Below, in pieces: positions 3,726 through 10,592 of a stretch of 64,000 nucleotides of DNA. Both the position numbers and the translations under genes were made by a program. Origin of the DNA: Elusimicrobia bacterium CG_4_9_14_3_um_filter_62_55 (GTDB lineage: Bacteria > Elusimicrobiota > Elusimicrobia > UBA1565); contig PFUL01000088.1 in assembly GCA_002790095.1 (NCBI GenBank), positions 1-64,000 on the forward strand, written 5' to 3'. Each line of letters starts with the position of its first letter. Positions within the stretch are counted from its first letter, which is position 1. The notes below the pieces were generated by a model. It did not search any database, had not been told where the DNA came from, and saw only the letters and a program-made list of their open reading frames with translations.

Positions 3726-4235
3726 CTATTGTTCGCGGGCGGCTGCGGTTTTCCTGTCTTGAGCGGCGCGGAAGCGCTTGCGCTCGGCTTGCACTTCAAC
3801 GAAAAGCGCGTCGAGTTCCTCTACCGTCTTATTGAACTCGCCCGCGCGTTCGATCTTGCGGACCTTGGAATCGTATTCCAGGAAGTCGAGTATCCTCTTG
3901 GCGTCGGAGGCGGCGAAGTCCGTCCACCAGCCGTAAACGACGGTCTTGCCGTGCATGCGGCGCATGAGGCGATCCCAATCGTCGCGCTTGACGACGCGGC
4001 TGTTGATCGGACGCGCGAGGGTGTGGCATTGCGCGCAGACGAGACGGAAGACCCGGTAGTTCGTCTGCTGCTGCTCCGGATACCCCTCTACGTTGACGAA
4101 GTCCGCGCCGAGGTCCCCGGGCTTTTGGGCCGCGAGTTGGGTGAGGGAAAACGTCGAAACCGGTTCCGGCTCCGGAGCGGGATGGCAGGCGGCGGCAATA
4201 ACGGCGAACGACACGATCGCGATCGTTTTTTTCAT
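3726..4235 (-). CDS. c-type cytochrome lipoprotein
   Basis: Probable periplasmic, membrane-anchored haem protein of 169 aa. A short hydrophobic leader ends in the lipobox-like AVIAAAC with Cys17, followed by a Pro/Glu-rich linker. One haem-binding motif CAQCH is at residues 67-71, and downstream Met residues (RLMRRMHGK) are candidate axial ligands. There is only one CXXCH, so it should carry a single covalent haem. Its ATG overlaps the stop of the upstream glutamyl-tRNA reductase gene by 4 nt, so the two are translationally coupled. It is the last gene of a five-gene operon devoted to haem or iron proteins. The redox partner cannot be read from sequence. Confidence 0.85.
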   Translation of the reverse strand: MKKTIAIVSFAVIAAACHPAPEPEPVSTFSLTQLAAQKPGDLGADFVNVEGYPEQQQTNYRVFRLVCAQCHTLARPINSRVVKRDDWDRLMRRMHGKTVVYGWWTDFAASDAKRILDFLEYDSKVRKIERAGEFNKTVEELDALFVEVQAERKRFRAAQDRKTAAAREQ

Positions 4236-5254
4236 CGGTTCCCCTCCACGGCGCAGAGGACCGCGGGGCCGGACCCGATTCTAACCCAGCAGTCGGCCGC
4301 CGCGCTCTCGAGCAGACGGAAAGCCGGGGCTGCGAACTTCAAGCGCTCGTCGCGCTGACGCTCCACCATCCGCTTCAAATCGTCCAAATCGTACAAGTAG
4401 ACGCCCTCGACCTCCGCCGCGTCCGCGGCCACGTTGCGCGGCAACCCCAGGTCGATCACGAACAGGGGGCGTCCTCCGCGCGCAGCGACGGCGCGCGCGG
4501 CTCCCGCGCGGTCGAGCAGCGGCCGACTCGCTCCGGTCGAGAACACCGCGACGTCGGCGTTCGCGAGCGTGTCCAGGACGCCGTCGAAGTCCACCACCGT
4601 CCCTCCCAACTCCGCCGCGAGGGCTTCGGCCTTTCCCCGGGTTCGGTTGGCCACGGAGATGCGGCGGACGCCTTTGGCGCTGAGGTGCCGTACCGTTGAA
4701 CGGGCCATCGCGCCCGCGCCCAAGACCAGCACGCTCAACCGCCCTTCGTCGCCGAAAATCTTGCGCGCCAAAAGCGCCGCGGCGCCCCCGATCGATCGGA
4801 ATCCAAACGCCAAAGAGGTCTCCCGGCGGATTCGCTTCGCCGCTTCAAGCGACTTCTGAAAGAGGATATGAAGGGTACGGCCCGCGGTGCCGACCGCCAC
4901 GGCTTCGGAGTAGGCCGCGCGGACCTGCGCCAGGATTTCCGTTTCCCCGACGATCCAGGAATCAAGACCCGATGCGACGCGGATCAGATGCCGGGCGGCG
5001 TCCCGCCGATGCCGGAGATAGAGGTAAGGGGACAGATCCCGCCCGGCCGCCTCCTCGAAGACGCGAATCGCCGCTTGGGGATCACCGCCGACGCCGTAAA
5101 GTTCGAAGCGGCTGCAGGTCGCCAAGAGAGCCGCTTCACTTAAACCCAGGAGTTCGCGCAAGGCGCCAACGTCCCGGATCCCTTTCGCCAATGCTTCGCG
5201 CACGGCGACAGGCGCCGTCAAATGACTCAACCCGACGACCCATAGACCGCTCAT
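4232..5254 (-). CDS. hemA: glutamyl-tRNA reductase, short form
   Basis: Reduces glutamyl-tRNA(Glu) to glutamate-1-semialdehyde, the first committed step of C5 tetrapyrrole synthesis. The catalytic Cys is residue 47 in ATCSRFELYG. The Rossmann NADPH-binding segment VLVLGAGAMARSTVRHL is near residue 175. The protein is only 340 aa, against about 410-450 for the family. It stops shortly after the YLYDLDDL segment and so lacks most of the C-terminal helical dimerisation domain. It overlaps the upstream hemerythrin gene and the downstream cytochrome gene by 4 nt each. Catalytic identity is secure. Whether it is the housekeeping enzyme or a specialised paralogue is unknown, because no other haem biosynthesis gene is in the window. 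Confidence 0.92.
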   Translation of the reverse strand: MSGLWVVGLSHLTAPVAVREALAKGIRDVGALRELLGLSEAALLATCSRFELYGVGGDPQAAIRVFEEAAGRDLSPYLYLRHRRDAARHLIRVASGLDSWIVGETEILAQVRAAYSEAVAVGTAGRTLHILFQKSLEAAKRIRRETSLAFGFRSIGGAAALLARKIFGDEGRLSVLVLGAGAMARSTVRHLSAKGVRRISVANRTRGKAEALAAELGGTVVDFDGVLDTLANADVAVFSTGASRPLLDRAGAARAVAARGGRPLFVIDLGLPRNVAADAAEVEGVYLYDLDDLKRMVERQRDERLKFAAPAFRLLESAAADCWVRIGSGPAVLCAVEGNR

Positions 5255-5742
5255 GACGGCGTCCCCCCATAGGCGTGCTCGAAGGCCTCCGCCGTCTGCG
5301 CGCGGCCGGCCTCGCCGAGACGCTCCTGCGCGTCCAACGGGAGAATCTCCTCAACCAAGGGAAACAGCGTCCGCTCTTCCTGCTCCAAATGTTCCTCCAG
5401 CACCGCAATAAAATCGCTGGTGGCCACCAGTCGCCTGAGCCGCGCTTCGGGCGCCTGCAAGGACTCGAGGAGCTCGCCGATGTGATGGTGCACCGTTTCG
5501 TGTTCTTTGTCGAAATAGTCCAGAACTTCACCCGAAACCGGCTTTTCGGACGAGGAGAGCGCGGGAAAAAGCAGGTCATGCTCCACCTCCTCATGCGCGG
5601 CGAGAAGGGGCAAGAGATGTCGGAGGGAGCGATCCAAGCCGGCGTGCCCTTCCGTTCCATCCTTCTTAAGAGAATCCCGCATGGCCCGCAATGTTCTTCG
5701 GAAGGACTCGTGCTGCCGCCGGAGAAGTTCGGTGATGGTCAT
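5251..5742 (-). CDS. hemerythrin-domain (HHE) protein
   Basis: Probable cytoplasmic non-haem di-iron four-helix protein that binds O2, NO or iron. The 163-aa product shows the expected spaced ligands: HESFRR near the start, HEEVEHDLLFP, HHHIGEL, and HLEQEERTLFPLVEE near the C-terminus. An upstream in-frame extension exists but overlaps the preceding gene. ATG 5742 lies 11 nt after the stop of the radical SAM gene and begins directly with the helical domain, so it is chosen. It is one of two hemerythrin genes flanking the radical SAM gene in the same operon. Its function (NO protection, iron handling or signalling) is inference. Confidence 0.85.
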   Translation of the reverse strand: MTITELLRRQHESFRRTLRAMRDSLKKDGTEGHAGLDRSLRHLLPLLAAHEEVEHDLLFPALSSSEKPVSGEVLDYFDKEHETVHHHIGELLESLQAPEARLRRLVATSDFIAVLEEHLEQEERTLFPLVEEILPLDAQERLGEAGRAQTAEAFEHAYGGTPS

Positions 5743-5753
5743 GCGATTACTCG

Positions 5754-6845
5754 CTAAGCAACGGTATTTCCCTTTGGAACATAGGAACAGGACGGATCGG
5801 GTCCGAAGGGACTCCCCGTCATGGCAAAGGCCCTGGCACGCGAGCCGCCGCAAATCCAATTGTACTCACAGCGACCGCACTTTCCCTGAAGCTTTTCAGG
5901 ATCCCGCAAATCCTTGAACAGCGACGCCTCCCGGTAAATTTCCGACATCGGCCGCTTTTGGACATTCCCCGCTGACACCGGAAGAAATCCCGAGGGATAC
6001 GCGTCTCCCTGAAAATCGACGAACGCGAATCCTTTTCCCGCGTTAACGGCCGGAGATTTTTTCATCTCCCCATCGGCGAGCGATTGGAATCGGTAGAGTT
6101 GCTGCGCTTCGGTCAATTTCACATGGAAGCCCGACTCCTTGCGGACCTCTTCGAGGCGCGCGAAAACGCGCTCGAAGTCTTTGGCCGAGATGCCCTTCAT
6201 ATTGGCCCCGCGTCCGGTCGGGATCAGGAAGAAGACTTCCCAAAATACGATGTTCTTCTCCTTCACGAACGCGATCATATCCTCCAGATAGGGAAGGTTC
6301 CATTCCGCGAAACAGGTATTGATTTGAACCGGGATTCCCGCCTTATGCGCCCCCTCAATGCCCTTGACGGTTTTTTCGAACGCGCCCGGAACCCCGCGGA
6401 AATGGTCGTGGGGACCGGCGACCGGAGCGTCGACGCTGAACGCGACTTGATCGCATCCCGCGCGCTTGATCGACGCGAGGCGCTCGTCGGTAAGGTTCTC
6501 GGTCGCGGCGGGAATAGTTCCCATGCGCAGGCCGATTCTCTTCCCGTAGGCGATCAGATCCTCGAGATCCGGACGGTTGAACGGATCTCCGCCGGAAAGA
6601 ATGCAAATCGGAGTCCCCATCCCCGCAATGTCGTCTAGGAGAGTCTTCCCTTCGTCCGTCGTCAATTCGCGCGGATCACGCCCGAGTTGCGCGGCCGCCC
6701 GGCAATGACTGCAGGCCAGTCCGCAGGAACGGGTGATTTCCCAAATCACCAAGAGCGGGCATTTGTTGTAGTCGACCGAGTCGATCTTCGGCCGACCGAT
6801 GCCTTTTGGATGGACGCCCGGGATGCCCGTTGGATGACCGCTCAT
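5754..6845 (-). CDS. radical SAM/SPASM protein, AhbD/NirJ-like
   Basis: A 363-aa radical SAM enzyme. The 4Fe-4S motif CGLACSHC supplies Cys41, 45 and 48. It sits after WEITRS, the usual lead-in in haem-modifying radical SAM enzymes such as NirJ and AhbD. LSGGDPFNRPD is the GGE-like motif. A C-terminal SPASM-type cluster is present as CGRCEYNWICGGSRARAF followed by PDPSC. The Cys usual in AhbD's CGGCRARA is Ser here. The gene overlaps the upstream hemerythrin by 4 nt and precedes another hemerythrin and hemA. Tetrapyrrole side-chain chemistry is therefore plausible, but the substrate is not shown. The uncharacterised TIGR04053-type relatives are the closest match from memory. Confidence 0.88.
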   Translation of the reverse strand: MSGHPTGIPGVHPKGIGRPKIDSVDYNKCPLLVIWEITRSCGLACSHCRAAAQLGRDPRELTTDEGKTLLDDIAGMGTPICILSGGDPFNRPDLEDLIAYGKRIGLRMGTIPAATENLTDERLASIKRAGCDQVAFSVDAPVAGPHDHFRGVPGAFEKTVKGIEGAHKAGIPVQINTCFAEWNLPYLEDMIAFVKEKNIVFWEVFFLIPTGRGANMKGISAKDFERVFARLEEVRKESGFHVKLTEAQQLYRFQSLADGEMKKSPAVNAGKGFAFVDFQGDAYPSGFLPVSAGNVQKRPMSEIYREASLFKDLRDPEKLQGKCGRCEYNWICGGSRARAFAMTGSPFGPDPSCSYVPKGNTVA

Positions 6846-7288
6846 GACAACGCCTCCCGCAATTTGGGAAATAGAATCGTATCTTCCCTTCTGAAATGGT
6901 GATCCAACAGATTTCTAAATCGCCCCAATCGTTCCACCAACTCAACGACTTCGGTCGGCGACGCGCTGCCCGGGGACAAACCCTTCAAATCCGAACCGAC
7001 CGCATCCAGCTCAATCTCTATTTTCCGATGCTCGTCCAGGAAATACTCGGGGTGTCCGGTGCGCGGCGTTGCCCCCAGAGCGGCGTACACCGGGAGCAGG
7101 GATTCCTCTTCGAAACTCGAGTGCTGCCTGAGCGCCCGCGAGAAGGCAATGAAGGTCGACAACGCGCCGGAAGGATCTCCGGCCACGAGGGACTCGGAAA
7201 TACCCTTTAAACGAATCAATAAATCAGGGTGTTCCCCGGCATGCGCCTCAAGCGCTCGCAAGGAGAGTTTTGGAGAGGAATCTTTCAT
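6842..7288 (-). CDS. hemerythrin-domain (HHE) protein, operon leader gene
   Basis: First gene of the haem/hemerythrin operon, 148 aa. Hemerythrin-type ligands are visible: HAGEHPDLL near the start, HSSFEEESLLPVYAAL in the middle, HRKIEIEL, and HHFRREDTILFPKL at the C-terminus. This pattern predicts a di-iron four-helix bundle. An in-frame extension to 7381 would overlap the divergent alpha/beta hydrolase gene. ATG 7288 starts just before the domain and is preferred. The stop overlaps the start of the radical SAM gene by 4 nt. It is diverged from the second hemerythrin of the same operon, so this is not a recent tandem duplication. Confidence 0.83.
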   Translation of the reverse strand: MKDSSPKLSLRALEAHAGEHPDLLIRLKGISESLVAGDPSGALSTFIAFSRALRQHSSFEEESLLPVYAALGATPRTGHPEYFLDEHRKIEIELDAVGSDLKGLSPGSASPTEVVELVERLGRFRNLLDHHFRREDTILFPKLREALS

Positions 7289-8290: not shown

Positions 8291-9694
8291 CTAGGACGCC
8301 GCGGCCTTCGCGCCCTCGAGCGCCTGCAGCATCTCTTCGATGTCCGTGAACTTTTCGCGAATCTTGCCCTTATCCTCTCCCCGTTTGATCTCGACCGCGT
8401 CGAGAATCTTCCAGTCTTCGAAACGAACAAGACGCGGCTGCTTCGCGAGCAGAAACTTCTCCGTCTCATCGGAGCAGGGAACCGCGCACGGCTTGATCGC
8501 GCCGGCCCGGAAGTCCGCGAGCAAGTTCTCCACCGTCGCCTGGGAATCCGCGCGGTTCGTGCCGATGAGACCGGAAGGTCCGCGCTTCGACCAGCCGACG
8601 ACGTATTCCCCGGAGGAAACCGCCCCTCCCGGCGCCGCGAGAACCCGGCCGGCCTCGTTGGGGATGCGTCCCGCCTTTTCATCGAAGGGAACTCCCGGGA
8701 TTTTCACGCCGAAGTATCCCACCGAGCGCAGCACCATTCCAACCTCGAGCGTCTCGAACGTTCCGGTGCCGCGGCATTTGATCCGGCCGCCGTCCTCGTA
8801 AAGCTCATTCTTCTCAATCTTGACCGCCCTGATGCGGCCGTCCTCTCCAAGGATCTCCACGGGAGAGGCGCAGAAGCGGAGCCGAACCTTTCGGTCCTTC
8901 GTCCCTTCCCCGCGCTTGGCGACTTCTTGGAGGAACTCGACGTTCTTCTTCTCGTTCGCGTCCACGCCCTTGTCCCAAGCCGCCTGGGACGCAGCGTCGA
9001 GTTCGGCCTCTTCCGGGAGGATCACCAAATCGCTGTCCGCGAGTTCGTCGATCTCCGCGATTTCCTTCGGGGAAAACGCCGACTGAAGCGGTCCTCGGCG
9101 GCCCAGCAAGTACACTTCCTTCACCTTGCTGCGGCGAAGGGCCTCGACGGCGTGATCGGCCATATCGGTCGTCGCGAGCGCCTCGGGACTCTTCACCAGC
9201 ACGCGCGTCACGTCGATGGCGACGTTGCCGATTCCGACCACGGCGACGCGCTCGCAATCGAGATTGAATTCCTTGCGGCGATGGTCCGGATGACCGTTGT
9301 ACCAGCCGACAAATTCGGTCGCGGCGTAGCTCCCCGCGAGGTCCTCACCGGGGATGCCCAGGTTCCGATCCGACTCGCAGCCGACGGCGTAGACGATCGC
9401 GTCGTAATGGCGCTTCAAGTCCTCGACTTGAAGATCCCGGCCGAGCATCACATTTCCGAAAAAGCGGAAACGGGGGTCCGAAGCGGTTCGCTCATAGACC
9501 TTCACGACGCTTTTGATCTTTTGATGGTCCGGGGCGACTCCTCCGCGCACGAGACCGAACGGAGTGGGCAGGCGGTCGATCATATCGATGCGCGCGTCGA
9601 TCTCCTTATCCTTAAGAAGGGCTTCCGCCGCGTAGAATCCGGATGGACCCGATCCGACGACGACCACCCGCAGCTTTTTTTGATTCTCAGTCAT
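8291..9694 (-). CDS. FAD-dependent ferredoxin-NADP+ reductase (adrenodoxin-reductase type)
   Basis: Soluble flavoprotein of 467 aa that moves electrons between NADPH and an iron-sulfur protein. VVVVGSGPSGFYAAEALL is the N-terminal FAD-binding Rossmann motif. PTPFGLVRGGVAPDHQKIK is diagnostic of the adrenodoxin reductase/FprA family. VAVVGIGNVAIDVTRVLV is the NADPH-binding motif, and YVVGWSKRGPSGLIGTNR is the conserved C-terminal FAD contact. ATG 9694 is preceded by GGGGGAAAC and overlaps the end of the HMG-CoA lyase gene by 8 nt. It may therefore supply electrons to, or reoxidise, an acyl-CoA dehydrogenase/ETF route, though that is inference. Confidence 0.9.
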   Translation of the reverse strand: MTENQKKLRVVVVGSGPSGFYAAEALLKDKEIDARIDMIDRLPTPFGLVRGGVAPDHQKIKSVVKVYERTASDPRFRFFGNVMLGRDLQVEDLKRHYDAIVYAVGCESDRNLGIPGEDLAGSYAATEFVGWYNGHPDHRRKEFNLDCERVAVVGIGNVAIDVTRVLVKSPEALATTDMADHAVEALRRSKVKEVYLLGRRGPLQSAFSPKEIAEIDELADSDLVILPEEAELDAASQAAWDKGVDANEKKNVEFLQEVAKRGEGTKDRKVRLRFCASPVEILGEDGRIRAVKIEKNELYEDGGRIKCRGTGTFETLEVGMVLRSVGYFGVKIPGVPFDEKAGRIPNEAGRVLAAPGGAVSSGEYVVGWSKRGPSGLIGTNRADSQATVENLLADFRAGAIKPCAVPCSDETEKFLLAKQPRLVRFEDWKILDAVEIKRGEDKGKIREKFTDIEEMLQALEGAKAAAS

Positions 9695-10592
9695 TGTTTC
9701 CCCCATCAAGATTCACTTTGGACAGGCGCGAAGCGAGCGGGCGCTTGAGCACGGGCTCGAGAGACTTCGCCGCTTCGGTCAGCCGGTTCAAATCGATTCC
9801 CGTTTCACCCCCCTCGGCGGCGAACGCGTAGACAAGATCCTCCATAGCAACGTTTCCGCTAGCCCCGGGGGCGTACGGACACCCGCCAAGCCCGCCGGAC
9901 GAGGCGTCGAAACCGGTGATCGCGAACTCGCGCCACGCAGTCAACGCGTTCGCGATCGCCATTCCGTAGGTATCGTGGAAATGGAGGAATATCTTTTCCG
10001 GCTCTACAGTCGCCCCCAGGGCCCGCAAAAGGGCGCGTACATCTTGAGGGGAGGCCCGTCCGATCGTATCGCCGATCGAAATCTCGTCGATTCCGAGTCC
10101 TAGGAGGGACTCGACGACCGGAAGTACCTGAGCCGGGGAGATTCGTCCTTCGTACGGGCAGAAAAATGCCGTCGAGACATAGGCTCTCAGCGGCAGCCCT
10201 GCGGCCTTCGTCTCACGGATCACCGGGCGAAACCGTTCGATCGACTCGGCGATCGACGCCCGAATATTCTTGCGGTTAAAAGTTTCGGAGGCCGCGGTAA
10301 ACACCGCGATCTTGCCGGCCTTGGCCGCGAGCGCGCGTTCCAGACCGCGCATGTTCGGAACGAGCGCCGAATAGAGCACTCCGGGCTGCCGGTTCAGACG
10401 CGCGAATACCTCGTCGGAGTCGGCCATCTGCGGCACCGCTTCCGGGGAGACGAAGGCGCCCGCTTCGATTTCCCGCAGTCCCGATTTCGACAACGCGTCG
10501 ACGAACGCCGCTTTGCGCTCTGCGGGAACCACCGCTCTCTCATTTTGAAGTCCATCGCGGGGGCCGACTTCGACGAAGCGGAGCGGATCCAT
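9687..10592 (-). CDS. hydroxymethylglutaryl-CoA lyase
   Basis: Cleaves HMG-CoA to acetoacetate and acetyl-CoA, the last step of leucine degradation. The 301-aa protein has the DRE-TIM features of the family: VEVGPRDGLQNE at the N-terminus, the divalent-metal HFHDTYGMA, and the catalytic-Cys loop GGLGGCPYAPGASGN. ATG 10592 overlaps the stop of the upstream hydratase gene as TGATG. The order carboxyltransferase - hydratase - lyase matches the chemical order of the pathway. Confidence 0.94.
   Translation of the reverse strand: MDPLRFVEVGPRDGLQNERAVVPAERKAAFVDALSKSGLREIEAGAFVSPEAVPQMADSDEVFARLNRQPGVLYSALVPNMRGLERALAAKAGKIAVFTAASETFNRKNIRASIAESIERFRPVIRETKAAGLPLRAYVSTAFFCPYEGRISPAQVLPVVESLLGLGIDEISIGDTIGRASPQDVRALLRALGATVEPEKIFLHFHDTYGMAIANALTAWREFAITGFDASSGGLGGCPYAPGASGNVAMEDLVYAFAAEGGETGIDLNRLTEAAKSLEPVLKRPLASRLSKVNLDGGNND

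Follow-up and report, generated by a model that had tools for sequence, protein, structure and literature searches.

A conserved five-gene operon in Elusimicrobiota with a proposed role in oxygen-independent haem supply

A 64,000-nucleotide stretch of DNA (the window) from Elusimicrobia bacterium CG_4_9_14_3_um_filter_62_55, an uncultured groundwater-type bacterium represented by an Elusimicrobiota metagenome-assembled genome (MAG), carries on its minus strand a run of five genes (7288-3726). As read from the open reading frames (ORFs), they encode a hemerythrin-like protein (HHE1), a radical S-adenosylmethionine (SAM)/SPASM enzyme, a second hemerythrin-like protein (HHE2), a glutamyl-tRNA reductase (GluTR) and a cytochrome c lipoprotein. 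We propose that this operon is probably an oxygen-independent haem-supply module for respiratory cytochromes, in which the radical SAM enzyme, a member of family TIGR04053, would act as an O2-independent coproheme decarboxylase and so as the anaerobic partner of the decarboxylase ChdC. The window corresponds to contig C41 of the genome (G000; 4.3 Mb, 202 contigs, 95% complete), which was searched family by family and compared with 57 relatives.

In a profile search the radical SAM protein scored 413.7 bits against TIGR04053, above the cut-off of 395. It also matches PF04055, and its SPASM match falls slightly below the Pfam cut-off (19.4 vs 21.5). After TIGR04053 the score ranking runs AhbD, NirJ2 and NirJ, with PqqE only later; AhbD is the nearest characterised family, which agrees with the preliminary description of the enzyme as AhbD/NirJ-like. 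The motif pair reported for all AhbDs, CX3CX2C plus a C-terminal CX2CX5CX20-38C (PMC10452713), is present. The AuxI cysteines are absent, with Tyr at the CPSG position and Ser in GGS; according to a published account they are likewise absent from the AhbDs of most non-methanogenic archaea. The closest named relatives of the gene come from Elusimicrobia MAGs, and a literature search on TIGR04053 returned no papers. The predicted structure (pLDDT 76.7) gave PqqE and SuiB as best fold-search matches; the model confirms a SPASM fold and says nothing about substrate. Could the enzyme instead modify a protein or peptide, perhaps a hemerythrin or the cytochrome, by PqqE- or MftC-like chemistry, with the GluTR gene a chance neighbour? 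Such chemistry is common among SPASM proteins and is that of the nearest solved folds, but the low rank of PqqE, the hem-gene neighbours found in several phyla (see below) and the lack of any small peptide gene between the conserved genes make this quite improbable.

Outside the phylum, seven genomes have a TIGR04053 gene at a distance of 19-719 nt from hemY (L097, L101, L104, L106, L137, L148, L155), among them members of the Planctomycetota, Latescibacterota, Lentisphaerota (two) and Dadabacteria and a deltaproteobacterial MAG. HemY exceeded its cut-off in all six of these loci that were tested, and two of their radical SAM proteins, when re-scored, gave 451-455 bits with TIGR04053. Adjacency to hemY was thus seen in 7 of 59 loci, compared with about 0.1% expected by chance (our own estimate, from roughly one hemY per 4,000 genes), and in the tree the hemY-adjacent members are spread over several branches that surround the Elusimicrobiota clade. 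Looser associations are hemY at 1.6 kb in L110 and hemA-hemC at 2.4-3.3 kb in L114 and L118, and in L106 hemC, hemE, hemH, hemY, the radical SAM gene and a GluTR gene occur together, all within about 6 kb of the radical SAM gene. When the Pfam families of 48 neighbouring operon genes from other phyla were counted, none dominated; the hem genes emerged only in a direct search.

The genome itself has the makings of a coproporphyrin route. The genes hemE, hemH and hemY are consecutive on contig C102, HemF and HemN are absent, and a divergent ChdC-like protein of 252 aa is encoded on contig C22 (L221:2610-3368). Of the two routes whose completeness the preliminary description had proposed checking, the coproporphyrin one is represented by HemE, HemY, HemH and this ChdC-like protein, and the sirohaem (Ahb) route was not found. 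Among the 57 relatives, HemE was detected in 55, HemH in 32 and PF06778, the ChdC family, in 43; none has HemF, AhbA/B (PF17805) or a HemN scoring above its cut-off, and no HemN above cut-off was found in 42 TIGR04053 genomes of other phyla. Since HemF, HemN and AhbA/B are missing, haem must be made via coproporphyrin or by an unknown enzyme. An alternative reading is that the radical SAM protein substitutes for HemN, converting coproporphyrinogen III to protoporphyrinogen IX for HemY and HemH on the classical route, so that haem synthesis would still be O2-free. The absence of HemN and HemF from the relatives speaks for it, as does hemY as the commonest neighbour, and the neighbourhoods fit it as well as they fit coproheme decarboxylation. 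We nevertheless think it unlikely, because AhbD acts on iron-loaded coproporphyrin (PMC11306076, PMC10452713) and because the ChdC-like proteins of the relatives imply a coproheme intermediate.

The ChdC-like protein scores 50.6 bits with PF06778 (Pfam cut-off 25) and 35 bits with HemQ_actino (cut-off 235). It was initially read as a paralogue other than ChdC (it is present in genomes without HemH), a reading that was dropped after by-eye alignment with the catalytic half of ChdC (WYPLRR...REHG); from this alignment it is likely a divergent ChdC. Such a protein is present in most genomes of the order, and being below the NCBIfam HemQ cut-offs it is easily missed in annotation. Ferrochelatase (PF00762) was not detectable in 25 of the 57 relatives (e.g. 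G017, G028, G036; L234, L236). Most of these have HemE and the ChdC-like protein, and hemE-hemY pairs and genes for c-type cytochromes occur in several, implying an unknown chelatase or haem uptake.

Some members of the order, a sister genus among them, have an AhbD-like radical SAM enzyme. In genera g7 and g14 the six loci read all show an operon of the form AhbD-like gene-hemE-hemH-hemY(-hemC), with the radical SAM gene first (genomes G010, G014, G019, G022, G040 and G041; loci L211-L215 and L225, e.g. L212:4754-10120). The g7-type enzymes score 404-423 bits against the AhbD profile TIGR04545, also below its cut-off of 500. PF06778 is absent from all eight such genomes, where the AhbD-like enzyme apparently takes the place of ChdC in the coproporphyrin route. 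TIGR04053 is found in 33 genomes and the AhbD-like enzyme in 15, with one genome shared (Fisher p 3e-6, the lineages not being independent). Three genomes (G004, G006, G007) have HemH and TIGR04053 and no PF06778. The hemY neighbours and their spread over branches, the g7 and G041 operons, the near-exclusion of the two enzymes and these three ChdC-less genomes together make coproheme decarboxylation the most likely role for TIGR04053.

Several observations count against this proposal. The window enzyme reaches 305.9 bits with TIGR04545, well short of 500. Most TIGR04053 loci outside the phylum have no hem gene within 10 kb. Twelve TIGR04053 genomes lack a detectable ferrochelatase as a source of coproheme. 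G041 carries both TIGR04053 and the AhbD-like enzyme, and G024 has HemH yet neither ChdC nor TIGR04053. Not finding HemN is weak evidence, since only 3 of the 14 control genomes have one above cut-off. Finally, the hemerythrins are restricted to one family (f1) of the order and are therefore accessory, not core. We advance only tentatively the wider idea that TIGR04053 might be another family of O2-independent coproheme decarboxylases, one that crosses phyla and partners ChdC under anaerobic conditions in the coproporphyrin route; in this lineage it would be guarded by translationally coupled hemerythrins and supplied by a HemA paralogue of its own.

The features of the operon are listed in Table 1. 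All five ORFs and their junctions are present as first described: 4-nt ATGA overlaps at 6845-6842, 5254-5251 and 4235-4232, and an 11-nt gap (5753-5743) between the radical SAM and HHE2 genes. Gene spacing supports the view that the five would form one transcription unit; a search for a sigma-70 promoter consensus inside the operon, a weak test, found none. Upstream lies a divergent alpha/beta hydrolase gene and downstream a convergent sigma-70 gene. Beyond the hydrolase, 1 kb upstream of the operon, is a gene (8291-9709) that we named by eye as an FprA/adrenodoxin-reductase-like flavoprotein and whose position near the radical SAM operon is kept in G005 (L038); it may be an electron donor to the radical SAM enzyme, or may lie there by chance as part of a set of acyl-CoA genes.

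Table 1. Operon features and their positions in the window
Feature	Position	Strand	Remarks
HHE1, hemerythrin-like protein, first operon gene	6842..7288	-	148 aa; stop overlaps the radical SAM start by 4 nt
Radical SAM/SPASM enzyme, TIGR04053	5754..6845	-	363 aa; proposed O2-independent coproheme decarboxylase, from profile scores and the nearness of hemY outside the phylum
CX3CX2C radical SAM cluster motif (CGLACSHC, residues 41-48)	6702..6725	-	From sequence; cysteines invariant in alignment A1
C-terminal CX2CX5CX20C motif (residues 323-353)	5787..5879	-	From sequence; AuxII-type cluster ligands as in AhbD/NirJ
HHE2, hemerythrin-like protein	5251..5742	-	163 aa; overlaps the GluTR gene by ATGA
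Second glutamyl-tRNA reductase paralogue, HemA2 (GluTR2)	4232..5254	-	340 aa; from TIGR01035 score and a clade separate from housekeeping hemA
GluTR active-site motif TCSR, HemA2 signature	5108..5119	-	Cys47 kept, adjacent Asn -> Ser
Monohaem cytochrome c lipoprotein	3726..4235	-	169 aa; lipobox and CAQCH

The window GluTR scores 270 bits against TIGR01035 (cut-off 209.6), retains the catalytic Cys47 and has domains PF05201 and PF01488. It had been remarked on as short, and it does lack the dimerisation domain PF00745. This domain was, however, found in none of five other GluTRs tested, namely the two others of the same genome (374 and 372 aa) and three from relatives, so the shortness is not specific to the operon. 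The genome has a second hemA, as had been put forward for checking, and indeed three GluTRs: the window copy, one overlapping hemC, and one whose neighbours are a porin-like gene and a gene for a multihaem cytochrome. The last of these (G000:C119; L004:14853-15971) shares its contig with the housekeeping hemA-hemC and belongs to the HemA2 clade on a long branch. In a tree of 50 GluTRs, the copies linked to radical SAM or cytochrome genes form one clade (13 sequences, support 99/96) and the housekeeping hemA of the order another (31 sequences, support 100/99). All 13 members of the former have TCSR at the active site and the sampled housekeeping copies TCNR, the catalytic Cys and Arg being retained. 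At least two GluTRs occur in 26 of 33 TIGR04053 genomes vs 6 of 24 others (p 1e-4, uncorrected for shared ancestry). Judged by motif and tree, the window GluTR is a dedicated second HemA paralogue, distinct from the housekeeping hemA.

The cytochrome has a lipobox, IAAAC (4185-4196), and a single haem motif, CAQCH (4023-4037). Homologues occur near GluTR2 in seven genomes (G002, G048, G052, G018, G023, G034, G017). In G005, G002 and G007 the operon is directly preceded by a gene for a ResB-CcsA cytochrome c synthase; in the window's own genome ResB-CcsA genes are elsewhere, e.g. on C108 and C155. In family f2 the radical SAM, GluTR and cytochrome genes are often together, commonly divergent, and the hemerythrins coupled to the radical SAM gene are gone. 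The f2 neighbours, named by eye except for those run through Pfam, include Crp/Fnr regulators, MtrB-type porins, multihaem cytochromes and cytochrome bc. The notion that TIGR04053 is always found with cytochromes was dropped, CXXCH motifs not being enriched near TIGR04053 genes relative to farther genes of the same loci (p 0.10 and 0.65). A similar theme with a different radical SAM family is seen in genus g5 (L216, L217, L218), where an AhbD-like enzyme is beside a related cytochrome c; further neighbours there are a porin-like gene with CXXCH, a gene with a CBS domain and a regulator of the cNMP type.

The preliminary description saw in these genes a dedicated, possibly modified haem for the one cytochrome. 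Its haem theme holds up; as for the special haem, the cytochrome gene does overlap the GluTR gene, in an association kept across the order, and the radical SAM enzyme has among its relatives NirJ, which acts in haem d1 synthesis, but CAQCH predicts ordinary covalent haem c, the sirohaem decarboxylase genes required for haem d1 were not found, and the partners of TIGR04053 in other phyla are general hem genes and not this cytochrome. We see no sign of a modified haem and regard the idea as very improbable. The hemY, hemH, hemE and hemC neighbours in other phyla and the coproporphyrin route of this genome point to ordinary haem b.

Both hemerythrin-like proteins match PF01814 above its gathering cut-off of 25.3 (HHE1, E 3.5e-12, 47.3 bits; HHE2, E 4.1e-17, 63.3 bits). 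In HHE1 the ligand-type residues H20, H56, E60, H87, H131 and E135 are invariant in five family members and the predicted structure is all-helical (pLDDT 90.5); its fold search gave no match with E <0.001, the hemerythrin domains of DcrH-Hr and FBXL5 appearing only among weak hits. HHE2 matches a hemerythrin HHE protein (PDB 6q09, E 1.7e-5). The two proteins probably handle O2 or iron. Genus g2 has a further HHE protein directly 3' of the radical SAM gene (L038:9091-9582, L039:7663-8178, L040:1246-1752); in the L038 copy, which alone was aligned, several ligand-type residues have been lost.

The grouping is conserved, not a matter of chance. HHE1 overlaps the radical SAM gene by 4 nt in five of the seven f1 genomes that have this enzyme (that of the window, G002, G004, G005, G007), so that these genes are kept together as the preliminary description would require. 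The complete order recurs in G002; G007 and G005 have two HHE genes downstream of the radical SAM gene, and G007 reaches GluTR at its contig end, G005 stopping earlier. The MAGs are incomplete; in G001, of the same genus and 78% complete, neither this radical SAM enzyme nor any GluTR was seen. Most of the order otherwise lacks hemerythrins at the radical SAM locus, which might suggest an accidental assembly by ordinary operon drift. Such an origin is hardly credible given the overlap in five genomes, the full order in G002 and, as far as its contig reaches, in G007, and the association of GluTR2, cytochrome and radical SAM genes in both f1 and f2.

A possible course of events is as follows. 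GluTR2, to go by its family and the paralogue tree, would provide extra glutamate-1-semialdehyde, and hence 5-aminolaevulinate, beside the housekeeping HemA. The shared enzymes HemB-HemE, HemY and HemH (the genes for HemC, HemE, HemY and HemH being identified) would lead to Fe-coproporphyrin III. TIGR04053 would then turn two coproheme propionates into vinyls by decarboxylation, forming haem b with neither O2 nor H2O2; this is the AhbD reaction, and would substitute for peroxide-dependent ChdC at low oxygen. The haem would go to c-type cytochromes, including the lipoprotein made last from the operon, a destination with which the upstream ResB-CcsA genes of G005, G002 and G007 are consistent. 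The hemerythrins, in what is the weakest step of the scheme, might bind O2 and/or iron beside the O2-sensitive Fe-S enzyme, as scavengers or a local shield.

The operon probably lets its host make haem for respiratory cytochromes when oxygen is scarce. The proposal would assign to TIGR04053 a specific haem reaction, open to testing, in further phyla with the coproporphyrin route, and would make the coupling of hemerythrin to radical SAM genes a candidate case of local O2 protection for a radical enzyme. Literature searches for a described hemerythrin-radical SAM or hemA2-cytochrome system found none; within the literature searched, the assignment of TIGR04053 to the coproheme step, the dedicated HemA paralogue with its cytochrome and the coupled hemerythrins appear to be new. 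According to a 2024 study of the coproporphyrin route in Bacillaceae, ChdC depends on H2O2, and growth under anaerobic conditions calls for a second, O2-independent enzyme that is as yet unknown (PMC10965808).

How does the operon compare with known systems? Like the hemerythrin-like HHE proteins of PF01814 (DcrH-Hr, RIC/YtfE), HHE1 and HHE2 are of the helical-bundle type with a di-iron ligand set; unlike them, they are coupled to a radical SAM gene, and they score 22.0 and 24.3 bits against RIC/YtfE (TIGR03652; cut-off 204.7). With AhbD of archaea and sulphate reducers (TIGR04545) the radical SAM enzyme shares the CX3CX2C and C-terminal motifs and the ties to haem genes and anaerobic respiration; it differs in its sub-threshold score, its missing AuxI cysteines and a genome without AhbA/B. 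Co-location of ahbD with hemY, hemH and hemQ has already been reported (Dailey et al. 2015, as cited in PMC10548856). As in that arrangement, HemE, HemY, HemH and a likely divergent ChdC are accompanied here by an AhbD-type enzyme as putative O2-independent decarboxylase, but it is a protein of the functionally unassigned TIGR04053 family, and its gene in this genome is not near the remaining hem genes but packed together with those for GluTR2, a cytochrome c and hemerythrins. In Haloferax volcanii ChdC (PitA) is required aerobically and AhbD anaerobically (PMC5746218), an experimental precedent for such a pair of O2-dependent and O2-independent coproheme decarboxylases, and its ahbD sits with respiration genes; H. 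volcanii is, however, an archaeon using the Ahb route, and a GluTR or hemerythrin partner is not described there.

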